Positions 1 to 11,150 of a stretch of DNA of 33,663 nt are shown here, piece after piece. Numbering within the stretch: position 1 is the stretch's first letter; each line of letters begins with the position of its first letter. Location: NCBI GenBank assembly GCA_030693145.1, contig JAUYBI010000054.1:1-33663 (forward strand), written 5' to 3'. A program made the translations under genes and the position numbers. This DNA comes from Candidatus Omnitrophota bacterium (lineage in GTDB: Bacteria; Omnitrophota; Gorgyraeia; Gygaellales; Profunditerraquicolaceae). Under the pieces are notes generated by a model. The model searched no databases. It was not told where the DNA came from and worked only from the letters and a program-made list of their open reading frames with translations.

Positions 1-36
1 CTGTTGATCGGTAAATCTTTTGTGTAATTGTGCCAT
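1..36 (-). CDS. Transposase N-terminus, partial (runs off the left edge)
   Basis: On the minus strand an ATG at 36-34 opens a frame reading MAQLHKRFTDQQ to the window edge. A strong Shine-Dalgarno, GGAGGT, lies 8 nt upstream (50-45). The short peptide resembles, from memory, the start of helix-turn-helix plus integrase-core transposases, but 12 residues cannot prove this. Support comes from the context: a perfect 16-bp inverted repeat around the start, and a duplicated 19-bp motif upstream that looks like an IS end. It is transcribed away from the ribosomal array. The gene may be intact outside the window. An unrelated DNA-binding protein is the alternative. Confidence 0.5.
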   Translation of the reverse strand, partial: MAQLHKRFTDQQ

Positions 37-72
37 ACTTGTAAACCTCCTTTTTCTTACAAGTATGGCACA
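29..72 (-). promoter_or_regulatory. Hairpin enclosing the Shine-Dalgarno and start codon of the leftward gene
   Basis: Positions 29-44 and 57-72 are perfect 16-bp inverted repeats separated by 12 nt (45-56). In the leftward transcript the loop holds GGAGGT and the 3' arm holds the AUG, so the start codon would be buried in a stem while the Shine-Dalgarno stays in the loop. Stem-loops that lower transposase translation from readthrough mRNA are known for several IS families. Its function here is inferred. Confidence 0.6.
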
Positions 73-125
73 AAAAACAGTGCACTTTTAAATTGTAACT
101 CCCTTTAAAAACAGTGCACTTTTAA
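73..125. repeat. Two direct copies of a 19-bp motif at the IS end
   Basis: A 19-bp sequence with core CAGTGCACTTTTAA occurs at 73-91 and again at 107-125 with no mismatch, 34 bp apart. Its core GTGCAC is itself palindromic. Direct repeats at an element's end upstream of the transposase gene are typical transposase-binding sites, so the IS boundary probably lies just after the outer copy, near 125-130. The other end of the element is outside the window. Confidence 0.55.
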
Positions 126-154
126 TTTGGAGATGACAAACCCAAAAATATAAC

Positions 155-181
155 TTGACAAACATCCTATCTTAGTATAAA
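155..181 (+). promoter_or_regulatory. Candidate sigma-70 promoter P1
   Basis: A perfect -35 box TTGACA lies at 155-160 and a TATAAA -10-like box at 176-181, with a 15-nt spacer that is shorter than the optimum. It lies next to the IS end and could drive the array from about 130 nt upstream of tRNA-Thr. Confidence 0.4.
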
Positions 182-230
182 CTCCTTTACTTAGACAAAT
201 ATCCAATGGTTCAGTAATAAAACTAAAGTA

Positions 231-315: not shown

Positions 316-388
316 GCTGGAGTAGCTCAGTTGGCAGAGCACGTCCTTGGTAAGGACGGGGTCACGAGTCCGATTCTCGTCTCCAGCT
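316..388 (+). tRNA. tRNA-Thr (anticodon GGT)
   Basis: A full cloverleaf can be drawn. The acceptor stem is GCTGGAG with CTCCAGC (316-322 and 381-387). The anticodon stem is CGTCC with GGACG (342-346 and 354-358), around loop TTGGTAA, which gives anticodon GGT and reads ACC and ACU. The T stem is ACGAG with CTCGT (364-368 and 376-380). The discriminator is T388 and CCA is not encoded. A tRNA-Thr just ahead of secE-nusG is a classic bacterial arrangement; here tuf is not between them. Confidence 0.95.
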
Positions 389-393
389 TAAGT

Positions 394-458
394 GACGCGC
401 GAAGCGCGTCATCCCCACGAAAGTGGGGATCTAAGATTCCCGCTTTCGCGGGAATGAC
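394..458. repeat. Tandem hairpin array after tRNA-Thr (family G)
   Basis: Three perfect hairpins lie nose to tail: GACGCGC with GCGCGTC (394-400 and 404-410), ATCCCCAC with GTGGGGAT around a GAAA tetraloop (411-418 and 423-430), and ATTCCCGC with GCGGGAAT (436-443 and 448-455). GTCAT at 408-412 and ATGAC at 454-458 bracket the last two. There is no U-tract, so this is not an intrinsic terminator. It looks like a dispersed palindromic repeat, and could act in processing between the tRNA and the rpmG message. Confidence 0.6.
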
Positions 459-483
459 GGTATCTCAAGGAGCAGCAACGAGG

Positions 484-505
484 AAGCCTGCCTGACGGCA
501 GGCAG
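484..505. repeat. Palindromic repeat family F, copy 1
   Basis: AAGCCTGCCTGACGGCAGGC and two further bases form a short hairpin (GCCTGC with GCAGGC). Another copy that differs at two loop positions lies at 27730-27751, upstream of rpsM. Both are in short gaps directly ahead of a ribosomal protein gene, here rpmG. Confidence 0.6.
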
Positions 506-526
506 GGATCACAACATTAAATAAAT

Positions 527-676
527 ATGCGTGAAACTATAACTTTAGAGTGCACGGTTTGTAAAAATAGAAATTATACGACGAGTAAAAATAAAAAGTT
601 ACATCAGGATAGGCTGGAGCTGAGTAAGTTCTGTAATTCCTGTCATAAACATACCCCACATAAAGAGATAAAATAA
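527..676 (+). CDS. rpmG: Large ribosomal subunit protein bL33
   Basis: This is a 49-residue basic protein starting MRETITLEC and ending HKEIK, the usual bL33 length. It has two zinc-knuckle pairs, C9-x2-C12 and C36-x2-C39, so it is the zinc-binding (C+) form. It sits between tRNA-Thr and tRNA-Trp, upstream of secE, which is a conserved location for rpmG in many bacteria. There is no clear Shine-Dalgarno; the nearest purine run (AGGGAT, 504-509) belongs to the end of the preceding palindrome and is rather far from the ATG. bL33 sits near the tRNA exit site of the 50S subunit. Confidence 0.95.
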
Positions 677-679
677 TTT

Positions 680-750
680 AGGGGCGTCGGTTAATGGCAA
701 ACCAACGGTCTCCAAAACCGTGACTGCAGGTTCAAGTCCTGCCGCTCCTG
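680..750 (+). tRNA. tRNA-Trp (anticodon CCA)
   Basis: The acceptor stem is AGGGGCG with CGCTCCT (680-686 and 743-749), containing one G-U pair. The anticodon stem ACGGT with ACCGT holds loop CTCCAAA, which gives anticodon CCA. The T-arm carries the standard TTCAAGT loop. The discriminator is G750 and CCA is not encoded. It lies 3 nt after the rpmG stop codon and 45 nt before secE, so the tRNA must be cut out of a transcript shared with protein genes. Confidence 0.95.
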
Positions 751-798
751 TGGTTTTGAAAAAGTAAGAGCGGCTTGGCTTAAGGGGATTTTAAGGTG

Positions 799-990
799 AT
801 GAGTATTTTAGCAAAACCAATAAATTTTTTTAAGGAAGTTAGAAGTGAATTAAGCAAAGTCTCCTGGTCAACGCGAAAAGAATTATTGGCCTCTACGGTT
901 TTAGTGATTACGGTTACGGTAATTTTAACAGCTTTTATCGGGATAGTGGATCTGGGTTTATCCAGATTTCTAAGCGTGGTTTTTAAATGA
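799..990 (+). CDS. secE: Preprotein translocase subunit SecE
   Basis: This is a 63-residue short-form SecE with one membrane segment (about residues 30-52). The amphipathic, conserved stretch before it reads FFKEVRSELSKVSWSTRKE and clamps SecY in the membrane. An in-frame GTG directly precedes the ATG (796-798), and AAGGGGA at 782-788 is better spaced for the GTG (8-9 nt) than for the ATG, so a 64-residue product is equally possible. The stop codon overlaps the nusG start (ATGA), which points to translational coupling. Confidence 0.93.
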   Translation: MSILAKPINFFKEVRSELSKVSWSTRKELLASTVLVITVTVILTAFIGIVDLGLSRFLSVVFK

Positions 991-1514
991 AAAATTGGTA
1001 CGTTGTCCATACACAAACCGGCATAGAAGAAAAAGTAAAGAGATCGCTGGATAAGCGGGTTTTAGCGGCAAGTTTACAGGATTTGATTTCCAGCGTGATT
1101 ATCCCTACCGAACAAGTTTCTGAAGTACGGGCTGGAAAAAAGAAGATTACGCAGAGAAAGTTTTTTCCGGGATATTTATTAGTGGAAATGGATTTAAATG
1201 AGCAGACCTATCTTTTTGTTAAGAATTCTCCGGGGGTTACCGGTTTTATCGGATTAGGCAGGAAACCGGTGGCGCTTCCTCAGGAAGAGGTGGAGAGTAT
1301 CCTTAAACGCACCAAAGAAACCGCAGCTAAGCCGTCACCGAAAATAGTTTTTGAAAAGGGTGAACAGGTCAGGGTTAATGAAGGCCCATTCTTGAATTTT
1401 AACGGAACAATTGAAGAAGTATATCCTGAAAAAGGAAAAGTTAAGGTGAGTGTTTCTATTTTTGGCCGTTCTACGCCGGTAGAGTTAGAGTATTGGCAGG
1501 TGGAGAAGGTATAA
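987..1514 (+). CDS. nusG: Transcription antitermination factor NusG
   Basis: The product is 175 residues, the usual NusG size. The NGN domain (about 1-110) starts with KNWYVVHTQ and contains PGYLLVEM at 61-68 and GVTGF at 83-87, the face that binds the RNA polymerase clamp. A linker leads to a KOW domain (about 123-175) with GPF.NF.GTIEEV and a conserved FGR. NusG raises elongation processivity and couples RNA polymerase to the ribosome through S10, which is encoded further along this array. It overlaps secE by 4 nt and is 2 nt from rplK. Confidence 0.97.
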
Positions 1515-1516
1515 CC

Positions 1517-1942
1517 ATGGCAAAGGCAATCAAGGCACAAATTAAGTTGCACGTTCCGGCAGCACAGGCCAATCCGGCTCCTCCAGTAGGCCCGGCATTA
1601 GGCCAGCATGGCGTAAACATTATGCAGTTCTGCAAGCAGTTTAATGAACAGACTAAAGGCAGGGACGGGTTAATTCTGCCGGTAGTGATCAGTGTTTTTG
1701 AAGATAGGTCATTTACCTTTATTATAAAGAGCCCTCCATCATCTATTTTATTGAAGAGGGCAGCGAATCTGGCCAAGGCTTCGGGGATTAGCGGTAAAGA
1801 GACTATTGGTAAAGTGACTAAAAAGCAGGTTGAGGAGATTGCCAAACTTAAGCTGCCGGATTTAAATACTAATAATATACAGCAGGCAATCAAGACTATT
1901 GCCGGCACTGCCCGCAGTATGGGTATTGCCATTGAAGGATAA
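1517..1942 (+). CDS. rplK: Large ribosomal subunit protein uL11
   Basis: The product has 141 residues, exactly the usual length, from [16 protein letters not shown]. The proline-rich linker [20 protein letters not shown] (residues 19-38) is the conserved thiostrepton-site region at the GTPase-associated centre. I chose the ATG at 1517 because an upstream in-frame ATG at 1493 lies inside nusG and would add eight unconserved residues. GGAG at 1502-1505 and AAGG at 1506-1509 serve as Shine-Dalgarno. rplA follows after 3 nt. Confidence 0.97.
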
Positions 1943-1945
1943 AAT

Positions 1946-2626
1946 ATGAAAACGCAAAGCAAGAGATATAAAGAATCCGCTAAGCAGGTTGGGCCGGATA
2001 AGTTCTATCAATTGAAAGAAGCAGTAGCGATATTGAAAAAGCTGCCTAAGCCGAAATTTGACGGTTCAGTTGATTTGCATTTTAATTTGAGCGTGGATAC
2101 TAAAAAAAGCGATCAGATGGTCCGGGGTACAGTTGTGCTTCCCCATGGAACAGGGAAAAAAGTGCGGGTAGCAGTATTTTGTAAAGGGGAACATGAACGC
2201 CAGGCAAGAGAAGCCAAGGCGGATTATGTGGGGGCTCAGGAGTTAATGGATAAGGTTGCCGCCGGATTTCTTGATTTTGATTGTGCTATCGCTACCCCCG
2301 AAATGATGAAAGACTTAAGTAAATTAGGCAAAGTGTTAGGGCCGCGCGGTTTAATGCCTAGCCCTAAGACCGGTACCGTGACTAATGATATTTCCAAAGC
2401 TATCGAAGACGTAAGAAAAGGGAAGGTTGAATTTCGCGTGGATAAGCAGGGAGGGATGCATTTATCTGTGGGCAAAATTTCATTTGCTGAGGATCAGATA
2501 AATGATAATGCCTCTAAAGTTATTGAAGCGGTCAATGAGTCCAGGCCGGCATCGGTAAAAGGTAAATTTGTGAAAAGTTTAAGTATAGCCGCTTCCATGA
2601 ACCCGGGATTAAAGATTATTTGCTAA
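1946..2626 (+). CDS. rplA: Large ribosomal subunit protein uL1
   Basis: The 226-residue protein has the L1 signature [18 protein letters not shown] near residues 61-78 and the [12 protein letters not shown] motif near 136-147. uL1 forms the mobile L1 stalk and helps release E-site tRNA. In many bacteria it also represses its own operon by binding the leader RNA. No leader of that type can be recognised here, because rplK and rplA are only 3 nt apart. rplJ begins 1 nt after the stop codon. Confidence 0.97.
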
Positions 2627-2627
2627 A

Positions 2628-3158
2628 ATGAAAAAAATCGGTCAATTAGTTAAGGAAACCTCAGAGAGCCGTATCAAGGACAGCTTTAAAGCATCTTTAG
2701 GCTTAATTATCGTAAAATACTCCGGAGTATCCAGCCCCGATATGAGCGCTTTAAGAAAGACGCTCAAAGGCTCTGACGCTGATCTTTTTGTAGTTAAAAA
2801 TAGCATTGCCCGAAGGGCAATGAAGGAGTTGGGCCTGGAGAACTTAATTCCGTCTATCCAGTCGCCTTGCGGGATGATCTTTTTTAAGGATGAACCGGTG
2901 GATATCTCCAGGATATTATGCGCTTTCCGTAAAGAACATGAAAAACTGATATTAGAGGGTGGATTATTACAGGATAAACTATTAACTTTAAAAGATATTG
3001 AATTGATGAGCAAATTGCCTTCTAAGGATGCGCTGAGGGGCAAGCTGGTGGTGGTATTAAATGCTCCGATTTTAAAGTTAGTTTTTGTTTTGAATCAATC
3101 TTTGAAAAAGTTCGTGTATTGTTTAGATCAAATCAAGCAGAAAAAGTCAGTTAACTAA
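2628..3158 (+). CDS. rplJ: Large ribosomal subunit protein uL10
   Basis: This 176-residue protein is the base of the L12 stalk. The N-terminal domain binds 23S rRNA ([22 protein letters not shown], then [15 protein letters not shown]), and the C-terminal helix carries the L12 dimers. It starts 1 nt after rplA, so the autoregulatory L10 leader known upstream of rplJ in enterobacteria has no room here. Instead a 116-nt gap filled with repeats separates it from rplL, which could allow separate control of L12. Confidence 0.96.
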
Positions 3159-3198
3159 TAAAGACACCCGGTGCTAATTGGAATTGCGCCGGTGTTGT
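3157..3198 (+). repeat. Hairpin repeat family A, copy 1 (upstream of rplL)
   Basis: These 42 nt match 11637-11678 (upstream of rpsG) at 37 of 42 positions. The core folds as CACCCGGTGC with GCGCCGGTG, a 9-bp stem with one bulged C and a G-U pair. It begins within the rplJ stop codon. There is no U-tract, so it does not look like a terminator. Both known copies precede a ribosomal protein gene. Confidence 0.65.
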
Positions 3199-3204
3199 AA
3201 TCGC

Positions 3205-3269
3205 TCCCCCTCGCAGGGGCTCGGGGTCATTTTTCCCCTGGCGCCGGAGGCTGGGGAAAAATGAGGAGG
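3205..3269 (+). repeat. Palindromic repeat family C, copy 1; supplies the rplL Shine-Dalgarno
   Basis: A 65-nt element almost identical to those at 28189-28251 and 33463-33527. Its centre is a perfect 12-bp stem, TCATTTTTCCCC (3227-3238) with GGGGAAAAATGA (3253-3264), around a 14-nt GC-rich loop. GGAGG follows at once (3265-3269), 5 nt before the rplL ATG. The Shine-Dalgarno is therefore part of the repeat and sits just outside the hairpin. Confidence 0.75.
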
Positions 3270-3274
3270 AAGAA

Positions 3275-3661
3275 ATGGCAACTGAAAAATTGGAAGATTT
3301 AATTAAATCTATCGAGACGATGAGCGTGATGGAACTCGCCGATCTAGTTAAAGCTTTGGAAGAGAAGTTTGGGGTTAGTGCGAATATGCCGATGATGGCT
3401 GCTCCTGGTGCTGCCGGTGGTGCTGCTGCGCCTGCCGCGGTTGAAGAGAAAAGCGCCTTTACGGTAATGTTGGTTAGTTGCGGCGCAAATAAAATCGCGG
3501 TGATTAAAGAAGTGCGTACAATTACTAATTTAGGTTTGAAAGAAGCCAAAGATTTAGTGGATGCTGCTCCTAAAGCGATTAAAGAAGGCGTAAGTAAAGA
3601 CGAAGCTGCGGAAATAAAAAAGAAATTAGAAGCAGCGGGCGCAACCGTAGAATTGAAATAA
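3275..3661 (+). CDS. rplL: Large ribosomal subunit protein bL12 (L7/L12)
   Basis: The 128-residue acidic protein has an N-terminal dimerisation helix region (about 1-34), an alanine- and glycine-rich hinge (about 40-55), and a C-terminal factor-binding domain with [13 protein letters not shown] and the helix [15 protein letters not shown]. It recruits EF-G, EF-Tu and IF2 to the ribosome and is present in several copies, so it must be made in excess over L10. The ATG follows a strong GGAGG that belongs to a family C repeat. This is one plausible way to raise its expression relative to rplJ. Confidence 0.97.
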
Positions 3662-3711
3662 GTTTAAGCAATTTTAATTAAATAAAAGGCTTTAGTTTAG
3701 CCATCAAGGAT

Positions 3712-6700
3712 ATGATAAAACGAAAGAATTTTGCCAAGATCAAAGAAGTTTATGAGCTGCCCGACCTTTTAGATGTTCAGTTGGATACTTATCGTGAATT
3801 TCTGCAGATGGATGTACCCGTAGGAGAAAAGAAGAACCAAGGGTTACAGGAAGTTTTTGATGAAATCTTTCCGATAGAAAATTCTGACCGTTCTGTAAAG
3901 CTGGAGTTCATTAGCTATTCTTTAGGTAAGCCCAAATATACCATGGGTGAATCCAAGAATCGTTCATTAACTTACGCTGCTCCATTAAAAGTAAAATTTC
4001 GCTTAACTACTCCTCATGAAACAAAAGAGCAGGATGCTTATTTTGGCGAAATTCCTTTAATGACTGAAACCGGAACGTTTATTGTTAACGGTGATGAGCG
4101 GGTAGTGGTTAGCCAGCTGCAGCGTTCTCCGGGAGTATCTTTTGAAGAAGAGCTGCATCCCACCGGAAAGAAAATATTTTATGGCCGGGTTATTCCTTAC
4201 CGGGGTGCCTGGTTGGAATTTAAGTATGACCTCACGGAAACAGTTACCGCTTATGTGGATCGGCGCAGAAATTTTCCCGCAACCCAGATTTTAAGGATCC
4301 TGGGTTTTTCCGAAGACAGCCAGATATTTGCTGCTTTTGGTAAAGAGCATCCTGAAATAATCAACACCTTAAAGAAAGATTATACTAAAAATAAAGAGGA
4401 AGCTTATCTTGATTTTTACCGCAAAATGCGCCCCACTGAGCCGGTAACTAAAGAGGCAGCCGAAGGCTTGTTTTATAGATTATTTTTTGATCCCGCCCGT
4501 TATGATTTAGAACGCGCGGGACGTTTTATTTTAAATCGTAAATTAGGCATGGATGTATCTTTAGAGAAGAGGATATTGGATTCGGATACCGTAATTAAAG
4601 TAATTGAGTACTTGATTAAGTTAAATGCCGGCACAGGTAAAATTGATGACATTGACCATTTAGGAAATCGCCGCGTAAAAAGTGTCGGGGAATTAGTGCA
4701 AAATCAAGTGCGCATCGGCCTTTCCCGGGTTGAACGTTCAATTAAAGAAAGATTAAGTATTCTCGGTGAGTTTGATAATTTAAATGTGCATTATTTGATT
4801 AATTCCAAACTCCTGAGTAACCAGATCCGCGATTTCTTCGGGCGCAGCCAGTTATCCCAGTTTATGGATCAGATTAATCCTTTGGCGGAAATGACGCATA
4901 AACGCCGTTTGAGTGCTTTGGGCCCGGGAGGGCTCTCGCGCGAAAGAGCGGGGTTTGAAGTCAGGGATATCCATCCTTCGCATTATGGAAGAGTCTGTCC
5001 TATCGAGACACCTGAAGGGCCGAATATCGGCTTGATTGCTTCTTTAAGTTGTTTTGCGCGTATTAACGCTTTAGGGTTGATTGAGACTCCTTATCGTAAA
5101 GTAGAAGACGGACGAGTGACTAAAAAGTTTGAATATTTAACTGCTGATATCGAGGAAGATAAATATATCGCTCAGGCTGATGTTCCGCTGGACAGCGAGG
5201 GCTGTTTTGTGGATAAATTTGTTACCTGCCGTTATAAAGATGATTTTCCCAAGGTACCGGCTAAAGATGTGCAGTATATGGATGTTTCCGCGAAGCAGCT
5301 GGTTTCCGTTGCCGCCTCATTGATTCCTTTCTTAGAGCATGATGATGCCAATCGCGCCTTGATGGGCTCAAACATGCAGAGACAGGCTGTTCCTTTAATG
5401 ATTACTGAAGCTCCTTTGGTCGGTACGGATATGGAAGGCAAAGTAGCGCAAGATTCCGGAACAGTGGTTATGGCGGAAGCCGGCGGAAAAGTAACGAGTG
5501 TGGATGCCGCGGCAATTACTATCGGTAAGAAAATTTATCACTTAAAGAAATTTTTACGCACCAATGCCGATACTTCCATAAATCAAAGGCCGTTAGTAAA
5601 ATTAGGCGATACGGTGGAAGTTAATCAGCCGATTGCTGATGGCATTGCGACTAAAGAAGGTGAATTGGCTTTAGGCAAGAATGTGCTGGTGGCTTTGATG
5701 CCCTGGAGAGGTTATAATTTCGAAGATGCTATTTTGATTAGCGAAAGATTGATTAAGATCGATGCTTTCACTTCTATTCATATCGAGGAATTTGATATTG
5801 AAGCTGCCGAAACCAGATTGGGAAATGAAGAGATTACCCGTGATATTCCCAATGTCAGCGAGGAGGCTTTAAGTAACCTGGATGAGGAAGGGATTATTCG
5901 CGTGGGCGCGGAGGTTGCCGCCGGAGATATTCTCGTCGGTAAAATTACGCCCAAGACGGATTCTGAACCTAGCCCCGAAGAACGATTATTAAGGGCGATA
6001 TTCGGAGAGAAAGCCGGGGATGTGCGCGATACTTCTTTGATTGTTCCTCCGGGGGTTGAGGGGGTAGTCATTGATGTGCATGTTTTTCAGCGCAAGGACC
6101 GTGGCCGGAAGACCAAAGAAGAAAAAACTAAAGAGTTAGCCAAAATCCGGGAATTAAAAGCTTATTACAAACAAGAGATCGAGTTTTTACAAACGGAGAA
6201 AACTTTACGTTTATCCCAGATGTTAGGGTGTGACAAGAAAAAAGTTGAGAAGTTTGATTTTAGTGAAAATGAAGAGGCAAAGATCTTAGCGGCTTCTTTT
6301 GATGAGCAGATGCAGGAACTGTTGGCTGAAGAGGAGCAGGAGATCGAGAAGGTGCGCCGCGGTGATGAGTTACCTACGGGCATCTTAAAGAGAGTTGTGG
6401 TTTATGTGGCTACCAAACGTAAGCTTTCTGAAGGTGATAAGCTTGCCGGCCGCCATGGTAATAAAGGCGTGGTTGCCAGGATTATTCCTGAAGAAAATAT
6501 GCCCTATATGCCGGATGGCACGCCGGTAGATGTAGTTTTAAACCCGTTAGGTGTGCCTTCGCGTATGAATGTCGGCCAGATTTTGGAATGCCATTTGGGT
6601 TGGGCAGCCAAAGCTTTAGATATGCATGTCAGCTGTCCGGTGTTTGATGGGGCTAAAGAAGCTGAAATTAAGGAGTTACTTAAGAAAGCAGGTTTGCCGG

Positions 6701-7116
6701 AAGACGGTAAGATTACCCTTTATGATGGTTACAGCGGTGAGCCTTTTGATCAGAGAGTAACCGTAGGGTATATGTATATTTTAAAACTCATCCATTTAGT
6801 TGATGAGAAGATTCATGCCCGTTCTATCGGGCCTTATTCCCTGGTTACGCAACAGCCGTTAGGCGGTAAAGCGCAATTTGGCGGCCAGAGATTAGGTGAA
6901 ATGGAAGTCTGGGCGTTGGAGGCATATGGGGCGGCTTTTACTTTACAGGAAATGCTTACGGTGAAGAGTGATGATGTCAGCGGCAGAACGCGTATTTATG
7001 AAGCGATTGTTAAGGGTGAGCAGCGCTTAACCCATGGAACTCCGGAGTCATTTAATGTTTTAATCAAAGAGTTACAAGGCCTATGCCTTGATATCAGGAC
7101 AGAAAAGGTTAAATAA
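3712..7116 (+). CDS. rpoB: DNA-directed RNA polymerase subunit beta
   Basis: The 1134-residue product is a compact bacterial beta subunit. The rifampicin pocket reads [20 protein letters not shown], with D386, H396 and S401 matching the drug-sensitive residues D516, H526 and S531 of E. coli. It is followed by [16 protein letters not shown]. The C-terminal DNA and RNA contact motif [20 protein letters not shown] is present near residues 1051-1070. Only 50 nt separate it from rplL, with AAGGA directly before the ATG. The stop overlaps the rpoC start by one base (TAATG). Confidence 0.98.
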
Positions 7117-10100
7117 TGGAAGAGATCGTATCGTTTGATAGTATTTCAATTAAGATTGCCAGCCCGCAGGTAATTAAATCCTGGTCTAAGGGTGATGTCA
7201 AAAAAGCCGAAACCATTAATTACCGTACACTTAAGCCGGAAAAAGATGGTTTGTTTTGTGAAAAAATATTCGGGCCGGTGCGTGATTGGGAGTGTAACTG
7301 CGGTAAATATAAAGGAATAAAATTTAAAGGTATTACCTGTGACCGTTGCGGAGTTACCGTTGACCGCTCAAGCGTAAGGCGTGAGCGCATGGGGCATATT
7401 GATTTAGCTACACCGGTTACGCATATCTGGTTCTTTAAGGCCGTGCCCTCACGTATGAGCGCGCTTTTAGATATTGGCTTAAGAGACTTAGAGAGGATTA
7501 TCTATTACGAGGAGTATGTGATTGTTGATCCCGGGACTACGCCGTTAAAGAAAAAAGAGCTGCTTACTGATGAACAGTATCAGGAGGCTTTAAGCAAATA
7601 TGGAACAAATTTCAAGGCTAAGATCGGGGCGGAGGCAATCAGCGAACTATTAAAAGAATTAGATCTGGATGTGGTTTGCCGTAAATTCAGGAAAGATTTG
7701 GAAAAATCCAAAGATGCTTTAAATAATCGTAAGGCAATTAAGAATTTAAAGATCGTTGAGGATTTTAAGAAGAGCGGGAATAAGCCGGAATGGATGATCT
7801 TAGAAATTTTGCCGGTAATTCCTCCGGATTTACGCCCCTTAGTTCCGCTAGAGGGTGGAAGGTTTGCTACCAGTGACCTTAATGATTTGTACCGCCGGGT
7901 AATTAATCGTAACAACCGCCTGAAGAAGTTGATGGAGCTAAGCGCTCCTGAGATTATTATCCGTAATGAGAAACGCATGCTTCAGGAGGCAGTGGATGCG
8001 CTCCTGGATAATGGCCGTCATGGCAAGCCGGTAAATGGCGCCAATAATCGCCCGTTAAAATCTCTTTCCGATATGCTTAAGGGTAAGCAAGGCCGTTTCC
8101 GTCAGAATCTTCTGGGTAAGCGTGTCGATTATTCCGGCCGTTCAGTGATTGTGGTGGGCCCGGAACTTAAATTGCATGAATGCGGCCTGCCTAAGCAAAT
8201 GGCCCTGGAATTATTTGAGCCGTTTATTATTAAGAAATTAAGAGAAAAAGGTTTTGTGCATACCATTAAAGGCGCTCGCCGCATGGTTGAGCGCGGTAAG
8301 ATTGAGGTTTGGGATATCCTGGATGAAGTGATTAAAGACCATCCGATTATGCTTAACCGTGCGCCAACCCTGCACCGTTTGGGTATTCAGGCATTTCAGC
8401 CGTTATTAATTGAAGGAAAATCCATAAAGATACATCCGTTGGTTTGTACCGCTTTTAACGCCGATTTTGACGGTGACCAGATGGCGGTGCATGTGCCGTT
8501 ATCCCTGGAATCGCAGCTAGAGACTAAAGTGTTGATTATGGCCATTAATAATATCTTTTCTCCCGCTGACGGCCGTCCGGTAATTTCTCCTACTCAGGAT
8601 ATAATTCTGGGTGTGTCCTATTTAAGCCGGGAAAAGGCAGGGGCTAAAGGAGAAGGCATGATTTTTTCTAGTGCCGATGAACTCCTGATTGCTTATGATG
8701 ATAAAGCGGTAGAATTACACGCGAAAATTAAAATTCGTTTCAGCGGCTTGTATGATTTCGACCAGAAAAAAGTAATCGCTGGGAATCAGATGATTACCAC
8801 TACTGTCGGCCGGGTAATCTTTAATCAGGTTCTGCCCGCGGAGTTTGGATTTGTTAATTGTGATTTAAAGAAAAGCAACGTGAGCGATATTGTGGTGAGT
8901 TGTTATAAAAGATTCGGCCATACGACGACCATTAAACTGCTTGATGATATTAAGAGATTAGGTTTTGAGATGGCGACTTTAGGCGGTATTTCTATCGGCA
9001 TCGATGACATGACCGTGCCGGTGGCTAAGCCGCAAGTTTTGAAAGAATCTAAAGAAGAGGTCGCTCGCGTTGAAGATCAATACCGTAAGGGTATTATTAC
9101 GGATAGTGAACGTAAATCCAAGGTAATTGATATTTGGACGCATGCCACGGATAAAATTTCGGACCTGTTATTTAAAGGGATGGATTCATTTAATCCTATT
9201 TTTATGATGGCCGACAGTGGGGCGCGTGGTTCACGTTTGCAGGTTAGGCAGCTTGCCGGTATGCGCGGCCTGATGGCTAAACCCAGCGGCGAAATCATTG
9301 AAAACCCGATTACCGCTAATTTCCGTGAAGGGTTAAATGTTTTAGAGTATTTTATTTCTACTCACGGCGCGCGTAAAGGTTTGGCCGATACCGCGCTGAA
9401 GACCGCAGATGCAGGTTACCTGACCCGCAGGCTGGTGGATGTTGCCCAAGAGGTAATTATTTGCGAAGAAGACTGCGGCACGCTTAATGGTATTACTGTT
9501 TCGGCGATTATTGAGGGTGATGAGGAAGTAGTAGGTTTAAATGACCGGATTATCGGAAGAGTGGCTTTAGATAATGTTGTAGATATTATTACGGATGAAG
9601 TTATTATTGAACAGGGTTGTGAAATAACTGAGGAGAAAACTGACCAGATTGAAAAACTGGGAATTGAGAAAATTCGTATTCGCAGTGTTTTGACCTGTGA
9701 GAGCGGAAGAGGAGTTTGTGCTAAATGTTATGGCCGTAATCTTTCTACCGGCAGGTTAATTGAGTTAGGGGAAGCAGTAGGGGTAGTGGCTGCTCAGAGT
9801 ATCGGAGAGCCCGGTACCCAGTTGACCATGAGGACTTTTCATATTGGAGGTACAGCTTCCAGGACCATTGAGCAGTCATTTATTAAGGCTAAAAATGAAG
9901 GTTTTATTAAGTACCATAACTTAAGGGTTACGCTGAAAAATAAGGAAAACGTAGTTTTAAATAGAAACGGAGCGATTAGCGTTAATGATGCTCAAGGGCG
10001 GGAGTTTGAGCGTTATTCGCTTCCCCAGGGCGCTTTTATTACTTTTGTTGACGGGCAGGAAGTTAAAAAGGGAGTGTCTTTAGTGCATTGGGATCCGTAT

Positions 10101-11150
10101 ACCTTGCCTGTGCTTACCGAAGTTGCCGGGTTAATACGCTTTGAAGATTTACGGGAAAATATCACTATGCGTGAGGAGGTTAATCCGGTTACCAAATTAA
10201 CGGAGCGTGTAGTCGTTGAACATAAGCCGGAATATCATCCGCAGGTAGTTATCCTGGATCAGAAAAAAGAAGTTTTAGGTATTTATCCTATTCCTATTGG
10301 CGCGCACATTATGGTGCGAGACGGCGAGCAAGTAGGAGGAGGAGATCTCCTGGCGAAAATTCCGCGTACCGTGGTTAAGACGCGTGATATTACCGGTGGT
10401 TTACCGCGCGTGGCTGAGCTTTTTGAAGCCAGGCGTCCGAAGGATCCGGCGCTGATTAGTGAAATAGATGGATTTGTGGAGTTTGGCGAAACCAAGAAAA
10501 ATCAGAGGGTGATTATTGTTAAATCTGCAACCGGTATGGCTAGAGAATATATTATTCCGCATGGTAAACATCCGAATGTTTATAAAGGAGATAAGGTTGT
10601 TGCCGGTCAGCAGCTTACTGATGGGCCGGTCGTCTTGCAGGATATTTTAAGTGTTTGCGGTGATAAGGTCTTGCAGGAGTACCTGGTGAATGAGGTGCAG
10701 GAGGTTTACCGTCTGCAGGGGGTGCGGATTAATGATAAACATATTGAGGTAATTATCCGCCAGATGCTTAAAAAAGTAAGGGTCGAAGATCCGGGTGATA
10801 CGGAATTTTTGGCTACGCAACAGGTGGATAAATGGGTGTTTCAGAAAGAAAATACCCGGGTGATTAAAAAAGGCGGCAAGCCGGCTCAGGCTACACCCTT
10901 ACTTTTGGGGATAACCAAGGCTTCACTTACTACGGAGAGTTTTATTTCCGCCGCCAGTTTTCAGGAGACTACCCGCGTTTTAACGGAAGCCGCAACCAGC
11001 GGCAAGCGGGATGAATTATTCGGCTTAAAAGAAAATGTTATCGTGGGGCACTTGATTCCGGCGGGTACCGGATTCAGGGCGCATCGCGATATTGAAGTAG
11101 TAAAGATTGCCGCCCAAGACAGCGTTGAAAAGAAAGAAGAAAAGGAATAA
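7116..11150 (+). CDS. rpoC: DNA-directed RNA polymerase subunit beta-prime
   Basis: The 1344-residue beta-prime subunit has the first zinc site C60, C62, C75, C78 and the catalytic loop NADFDGDQM with the Mg-binding aspartates D450, D452 and D454. The trigger-loop region contains [20 protein letters not shown], and the second zinc site lies in [13 protein letters not shown]. The length is in the normal range for bacteria lacking large insertions. Translation is probably coupled to rpoB through the one-base overlap. rpsL follows after 3 nt with no terminator, so RNA polymerase and the str genes appear to share a transcript. Confidence 0.98.

Follow-up and report, generated by a model that had tools for sequence, protein, structure and literature searches.

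An IS1202-type insertion sequence of Omnitrophota that appears to target sigma70-type promoters and to hide its transposase start codon in an RNA hairpin

According to Harmer, Pong and Hall (2023, PMC10132070), the IS1202 family comprises insertion sequences with TGT...ACA ends, imperfect TIRs of about 24-26 bp and, near each end, a further repeat that resembles a transposase-binding site. Their single transposase (394-507 aa) has two N-terminal HTH domains, an RNase H fold and a beta-barrel, with a Q at +7 from the catalytic E (PMC10132070). Within the family, a long-duplication group (IS1202 itself, ISCARN53/62/63, ISTde1 and others) generates target site duplications of 16-28 bp, for which no target had been found (PMC10132070). 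A separate paper states that there is no clue as to how the longer duplications of related eukaryotic elements arise.

The DNA analysed here (the window, i.e. the whole stretch of 33,663 nucleotides of contig JAUYBI010000054.1 from a Candidatus Omnitrophota bacterium) begins inside an element with the features of this group. Comparison of its sequence with other copies and relatives leads to one joint reading, to which we give a probability of roughly 0.7, namely that a hairpin over the transposase start serves as translation control of a promoter-targeting IS1202-type element.

The element and its family

Bases 1..138 of the window (minus strand) form the transposase-start ('A') end of the IS, the outer tip of which lies at 138, where the minus strand reads 5'-TGTCATCTCC and where all 16 copies in the genome stop at the same base. 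Base 1 is the end of the contig and lies inside the element, the remainder of which falls beyond it. The first 12 codons of the transposase (MAQLHKRFTDQQ; 1..36, minus strand), cut by the contig end, resemble the N-termini of the transposases of relatives, and two subterminal copies of AAAAGTGCACTGTTT (75-89 and 109-123, minus strand), with a similar pair at the other IS end, are likely to be binding sites of the transposase. This IS end is present on 16 contigs of the same MAG (1.81 Mb, 75 contigs) and the opposite (B) end at 15 places, both types sitting close to contig ends, which is the pattern expected of a multicopy repeat that was left unassembled. For the same reason the full transposase is known from relatives only, its interior being found nowhere in the MAG itself. 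A sequence-only reading of the first 72 bases had taken them to be the transposase start of an IS, and the 16 contigs, together with complete elements in relatives, bear this out.

One such complete element, encoding a 420-aa transposase, was found in a genome of the same genus (L045), and two overlapping genome sets, searched with different cut-offs, yielded matches in 14 of 285 members of the phylum and 11 of 384 members of the class. A scan of named genomes returned five loci (three titled Omnitrophica, one Omnitrophota and one 'bacterium'), one of which is the L045 element. The 13 complete elements measure 1393-1433 bp and encode transposases of 406-423 aa; 12 of them have TGT...ACA ends (L085 has TGA at one end), and a AAAAGTGCAC-type motif occurs twice at each IS end. 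E268 and Q275 are invariant in all ten aligned transposases, the Q lying at +7 from E268, which, by its position, is presumed to be the catalytic E. Duplications are 15-16 bp long in 14 insertions of the own genome and nine of relatives (none in L076, L078 and L079), i.e. at the lower edge of the published 16-28 bp. For all eight proteins searched, the best NCBIfam model was NF033594 (transpos_ISNCY_2), at 122-161 bits against a curated cut-off of 250, with IS481 next, and formal membership of NF033594 was rejected on these scores. The predicted structure of the transposase (mean pLDDT 63) has helices, core strands and C-terminal strands in the published order, and its best fold matches, standing among retroviral integrases, were IstA (Z 7.2) and TnsB of ShCAST (Z 6.2-6.6), all below Z 8; a sequence search of solved structures gave a weak phosphodiesterase match only. 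Judged by the published description of the named members, the features of the element match those of the IS1202 long-duplication group.

Outside the phylum, no long-duplication copy was recognised among the tblastn matches listed for plasmids (the best 40-60 of thousands) or among those listed for phages (17 records), and three viral contigs (L110-L112) gave 23-28% identity. Two of five plasmid loci (L113 and L116, with 5-bp duplications) served as short-duplication controls; L114 and L115 were dropped because of broken frames, and L117 fell outside the analysis.

The insertion target

In the window, the tip is followed by a 16-bp target site duplication (AACCCAAAAATATAAC, 139..154), an exact copy of which flanks the opposite IS end on contig C62, and the duplication is abutted by TTGACA (155..160, plus strand), the -35 hexamer of what would be the targeted host promoter, with its -10 region (TATAAACT) at 176..183 (plus strand). 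The first gene downstream is tRNA-Thr (316..388, plus strand), after which comes tRNA-Trp (679-751). The site was compared at 23 loci of other genomes of the genus, 22 of which aligned; none of these shows the IS (by eye), and while their surroundings drift, TTGACA is kept in all 22 and TATAAACT in 21 (L126 has GATAAACT). In another family of the class (L088), the promoter of these tRNA-Thr/tRNA-Trp genes is occupied by a different element, and contig C22 of the own genome and L043 carry different elements at the same tRNA-Met promoter, with tips 15 and 16 bases from the -35, which points to independent, repeated use of these apparent promoters.

The stretch that follows the targeted promoter (316-11150) contains, besides the two tRNA genes, a short rpmG-like frame between them, a nusG-like frame after them and more frames, of which those of 1134 and 1344 aa, up to 11150, resemble rpoB and rpoC by eye and by length; the promoter beside the IS in the window may thus be that of the host's RNA polymerase operon. 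At about 390-462 lies a REP-like palindromic repeat (GCGCGTCATCCCCACGAAAGTGGGGATCTAAGATTCCCGC...) with many copies in the own genome and in relatives. Short palindromic elements (e.g. GTAGGGGAGGTTTAAACCTCCCCTAC, and others of a GTGTAACAAACCTT...TAGGGTGGGTTTAAACCCACC type) also occur beside several duplications, in the B-end flanks of C1, C60, C15, C17 and C21/C24 (L054, L092, L057, L089 and L058), and are perhaps small non-autonomous elements.

Within the own genome, exact duplications of 15-16 bp link each of the 15 opposite-end flanks to one of 14 distinct transposase-start flanks (C21 and C24 share one flank, and C22 and C71 are without a partner), so that the other flank is available for 14 of the 16 insertions, all 14 being exactly duplicated. 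Scored with a promoter matrix that was built from E. coli frequencies, the 16 own flanks average 10.6, whereas random positions average 2.5 and AT-rich gene-upstream windows 3.2 (p = 8.5e-11), and the far flank, with a mean of 3.1, is not enriched (p = 0.48). Fourteen insertions have scores that no more than 1.6% of random positions attain; C44 and C25 score low (10% and 21% of random positions, respectively, do as well) and both keep a -10 at the same place, which in C25 is a perfect hexamer accompanied by no recognisable -35. In 14 of the 16 flanks, 15 or 16 bases separate the tip from the best -35 (that of C24 is in another register, with a weaker alternative at 16). In all insertions except C14 the available stretch contains an ORF of at least 90 aa (mechanically called) or a tRNA that is directed away from the IS, and it is usually the transposase-start end that faces the promoter. 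The duplication ends at the -35 and sits directly upstream of this hexamer, and therefore the -35, the -10 and 15-16 bp of upstream DNA stay in place. As far as can be judged from these sequences, the site of insertion is a do-no-harm one, at which the target gene keeps its predicted core promoter.

Since the offsets were chosen after inspecting the own-genome flanks, the relatives are the only independent test. With the offsets fixed beforehand, 20 of 21 insertions in relatives have a promoter on one flank (background fraction at most 0.004), which is on the transposase-start side in 17 and on the other side in three (L067, L078 and L079, in which the promoter flank was picked as the better of two). 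In L078 and L079 the two end types have swapped places with respect to the transposase gene and the TGTC-type end still faces the promoter, which suggests that end identity, rather than gene direction, sets the orientation of insertion; L067 is a true exception, with its promoter at the opposite end. (The elements of L078 and L079 come from outside the window's class.) In L081 no promoter is present on the only intact side; its start-side end is truncated, and the other flank was the one that could be scored. For the 12 relatives with both flanks, the second flank is ordinary (0.098-0.979), and in nine of them the duplication, 15 or 16 bp long, has the same length as the stretch between tip and -35 (that of L077 has an additional base at its far end), the others being the three without duplication mentioned above. 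An additional site, L109, has a perfect -35 and a weaker -10.

When all sites are pooled, 33 of 37 match both hexamers at four or more of six positions (the -35 in 34, the -10 in 36; C14, C24, C25 and L067 fail one hexamer), against a background of 3.9% per one flank, and the -35 lies exactly one duplication length from the tip in 20 of the 23 duplicated sites (11/14 own, 9/9 relatives). The element almost certainly targets, on this sequence evidence, sigma70-type host promoters at a fixed offset, with its 15-16 bp duplication placed just upstream of the -35.

This regularity bears directly on how the target is chosen. If the IS landed anywhere and harmless insertions beside promoters merely persisted, insertions upstream of genes with the promoter left in place would indeed be found, but such survivorship predicts spread, whereas the -35 stands at 15 or 16 bases in nearly all own flanks and at precisely the duplication length in most duplicated sites, and different elements recur at the same tRNA promoters in different genomes; we consider it very improbable. 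A transposase that reads the promoter DNA itself, without RNA polymerase, is a real possibility at somewhat less than even odds. Elements of 1.39-1.43 kb leave little space for a second gene, and in the family paper target specificity is placed probably in the transposase, although contact with bound XerC is suggested for the dif group (PMC10132070). Recognition of nothing but a TTGACA-like hexamer fits the pooled sites less well: among sites with a -35 matching at five or more positions, 22 of 28 have a -10 matching equally well at 16-18 bp, whereas 304 kb of the own genome yielded 255 intergenic -35 matches, 22 of them with such a -10, and seven of nine weaker -35 sites have a strong -10 at the fixed place (background 4%). 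The target is therefore the promoter, not the hexamer, and TTGACA alone was rejected as a target because the -10 is enriched far above its frequency at intergenic -35 matches. Another possibility, at slightly less than even odds, is that the transposase is captured by promoter-bound sigma70 RNA polymerase (sigma region 4 or the alpha C-terminal domain). Its cuts would then fall at the upstream border of the -35 and, 15-16 bp farther from the promoter, in the UP-element zone.

The start-codon hairpin

The sequence-only reading had described a perfect 16-bp hairpin with the Shine-Dalgarno in a 12-nt loop and the AUG in the 3' arm. Sequence and fold agree with this arrangement, but the stem has 17 bp instead of 16: positions 28-44 (TTGTGCCATACTTGTAA) and 57-73 (TTACAAGTATGGCACAA) are exact reverse complements, and in RNA one G-U closing pair is added. 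In the leftward RNA (minus strand), the 5' arm is formed by 57..73, the loop with its Shine-Dalgarno AAGGAGG by 45..56 and the 3' arm by 28..44, which holds codons 2-3 and the AUG (36-34) that opens MAQLHKRFTDQQ. For the minus strand of 1-160 the predicted folding energy is -42 kcal/mol (z -4.3), a stability reached by none of 200 shuffles, and when the 5' arm alone is shuffled the native energy is reached in none of 300. The whole palindrome is present, identical by eye, in 15 of the 16 contigs that bear the IS end, the remaining one (C44) beginning inside it.

Conservation was followed in 19 distinct leaders, i.e. that of the window and 18 of relatives. Duplicates were dropped (L072, L073, L074, L075 and L044, being equal to L071, L067, L070, L069 and L080), as were L047 (an internally deleted copy without flank) and the fragments L083, L084 and L087; L041 and L042, cut by contig ends, were excluded, and so was L048, the leader of which is the same as that of L043, though it was retained as an insertion site. 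The decayed copy L039 was kept in the counts, and L082, with a tip one base off TGT, was placed by alignment. Two of these copies deserve mention in their own right: L039:1500-1620 (G068) is a decayed IS end that still has the hairpin and a promoter beside its tip, and in L047:1-130 the transposase-start end joins, just past the Shine-Dalgarno, an apparent 3' portion of the transposase, resembling an incipient MITE.

The AUG is folded into a stem in all 19 leaders, and likewise in L109 (in L043, L081 and L085 only two of its three bases are paired), and the weakest hairpin is that of L088, for which five of 300 shuffles are as stable. Energies of the arms with their own partners sum to -360.8 kcal/mol versus -211.3 +/- 15.2 kcal/mol after re-matching, and none of 20,000 re-matchings pairs as well. 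The leaders of the short-duplication controls L113 and L116 are no more stable than their shuffles (z -0.03 and -0.86), but in their minimum-energy folds the AUG is nevertheless paired, wholly in L113 and partly in L116. Some members (the window, L068 and L070) have their Shine-Dalgarno in the loop, and in others (L067, L071 and L086) it is paired; hence it is the hiding of the start codon that is the common feature.

Covariation was assessed in 18 aligned leaders (17 of the 19, omitting L080 and L085, plus L109), with counts that are lowered by the poor MAFFT alignment of the 5' arms of L040, L078, L079, L081, L082 and L086. In this alignment, 69% of cells pair (59.5 +/- 1.7 when shuffled) and in 31 cells both partners have changed (17.2 +/- 3.3 after shuffling), neither being equalled in 500 shuffles, and covariation is 0.265 in register versus 0.086-0.206 when slid. 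The number of pairs with a double change (8 vs 8.0 shuffled) and of further pair types (27 vs 24.0; 81/500 shuffles) is unexceptional. The third base of codon 2, a synonymous site in members with GCN (Ala), pairs in all four Watson-Crick ways (AU 4, CG 3, GC 2, UA 2, besides GU 1, UG 1 and five unpaired), and the base facing the G of AUG is U in ten leaders and C in eight, never A or G. Such paired changes had been proposed earlier as a check on the hairpin, and they were found among elements with transposases 48-89% identical to the reference L045, and in the more distant L085; neither a copy that lacks the palindrome nor a transposase that starts elsewhere was encountered among the copies seen. 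Judged by these changes, the RNA hairpin very probably co-evolves across elements.

The palindrome had also been suggested to bind transposase as DNA, and a site for transposase or for a repressor would be consistent with the perfect dyad in the window. It is missing from the other IS end (by eye), however, and in relatives the dyad is broken by bulges and G-U-type changes that preserve RNA pairing, such as the U or C opposite the G of AUG, which suits an RNA stem and not a DNA dyad. A mainly DNA-level role is accordingly improbable. The dyad was rejected as a DNA binding site, a role that on sequence grounds better suits the AAAAGTGCAC-type motif, which recurs at each of the two ends.

With respect to RNA, the earlier suggestion of a built-in brake holds in so far as the start codon is hidden by conserved pairing; its opening by a bound protein would not be required, since the best -10-like hexamer lies in the 5' arm, opposite the AUG (-30 to -32), in 12 of the 19 leaders. 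In the window this proposed -10 of a transposase promoter is CATACT (62..67, minus strand, preceded by TGC), with a predicted start at about base 55, in the loop; it scores 2.4, under the chance median of 3.3, and has no good -35. For the 12 leaders, the predicted start is at -18 to -20, at the loop start or within 4 nt of it, none has a -35 scoring above 1.7, and seven of the hexamers exceed the 90th percentile of chance (5.1), while those of L076 and L077 (2.4) are under the chance median and those of L078 and L079 (3.5) near it. In six of the 19 the best hexamer is elsewhere, among them L043, where a fair promoter (TTTACC-17-TAAAAT) would start at -30, inside the arm; in L086, the remaining leader, it is at -35, also opposite the AUG. 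The AUG of the own-start transcript is predicted to be unpaired with a mean probability of 0.45-1.0 in 11 of the 12 (0.01 in L040), and that of a transcript starting upstream with at most 0.05 in 16 of the 19. With U opposite the G of AUG, the hexamer is TATACT instead of CATACT, which improves the -10 at the cost of a wobble pair, and this exchange of a C-initial for a T-initial hexamer, with G-U for G-C, looks as if promoter and pairing were both kept.

These features could be combined as follows. The 5' arm would double as the -10 region of the transposase promoter, and the element's own mRNA would start near the loop, without the 5' arm, leaving AUG and Shine-Dalgarno exposed. Transcripts from outside, e.g. 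reverse ones from the neighbouring promoter, would carry the 5' arm, fold and stay untranslated, a brake that would limit over-production of transposase by an element living beside active promoters. We lean slightly towards the hairpin being such a read-through filter on transposase translation, and not more than slightly because of the chance-level -10 scores among the leaders. The hairpin might instead be present on every transposase mRNA, including the element's own, to be opened by melting, antisense RNA or protein. Its strength and conservation would suit this general brake, as would the weakness of the internal promoter (no good -35, and a chance-level -10 in five of the 12 leaders), and a precedent is given by ISPpu9, where a structured leader buries the ribosome site and is opened by antisense RNA. 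It accounts less readily for the 12 leaders (of 19) with their best -10-like hexamer in the 5' arm and a start predicted close to the loop, or for the G-U that replaces G-C where the hexamer starts with T, and it seems unlikely, if by no means negligible.

Comparison with known systems

The element resembles the IS1202 long-duplication group in having one DDE transposase of similar size, a length of about 1.4 kb, duplications of 15-16 bp, TGT...ACA ends with a second subterminal motif, and a Q seven residues after the presumed catalytic E. It differs from the group as published in that a target, sigma70-type promoters, can be proposed here, and the start-codon hairpin goes unmentioned in the consulted part of the family description (PMC10132070). 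The ISAjo2 group, according to the same source, has a related transposase and also inserts at a constant spacing from the binding site of a host protein, but with duplications of 3-5 bp and at dif sites (PMC10132070). IS1202-type elements may thus use a host machine bound to DNA as their landmark, i.e. XerC at dif (as others have proposed) and perhaps RNA polymerase.

The published question as to the target of long-duplication IS1202-type elements thereby receives a testable answer, the upstream edge of sigma70-type promoters, and with such a target many copies can accumulate without breaking genes. It also suggests a natural promoter-seeking integrase, which might serve to label active promoters in uncultured bacteria. 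A literature search that covered titles and the starts of abstracts (with few subscription papers, and preprints outside its scope) brought up nothing that was recognised as a report of promoter targeting by the IS1202 family.

In IS10, IS50 and IS200, read-through RNA folds over the translation start of the transposase. Read-through RNA is predicted to hide the translation start here as well, by analogy with IS10 and IS50, with the differences that the 5' arm may double as a -10 and that the pairing partner is the start codon itself. The hairpin shows how an element may stay quiet beside strong promoters; taken alone it would be a new example of a known control, and together with the promoter target it would make up a coherent, testable lifestyle.

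The yeast elements Ty3 and Ty1 integrate at a fixed distance upstream of host transcription starts. The present element shares with them the fixed distance and the repeated use of tRNA promoters, but it is a bacterial DNA transposon at sigma70-type promoters, for which tethering by RNA polymerase is hypothetical. If capture by RNA polymerase is true, the start-codon hairpin would be a safety device against reverse transcripts from the captured promoter, and the element would be, as far as the literature search shows, the first prokaryotic one with promoters as its specific target, i.e. a bacterial counterpart of Ty3.
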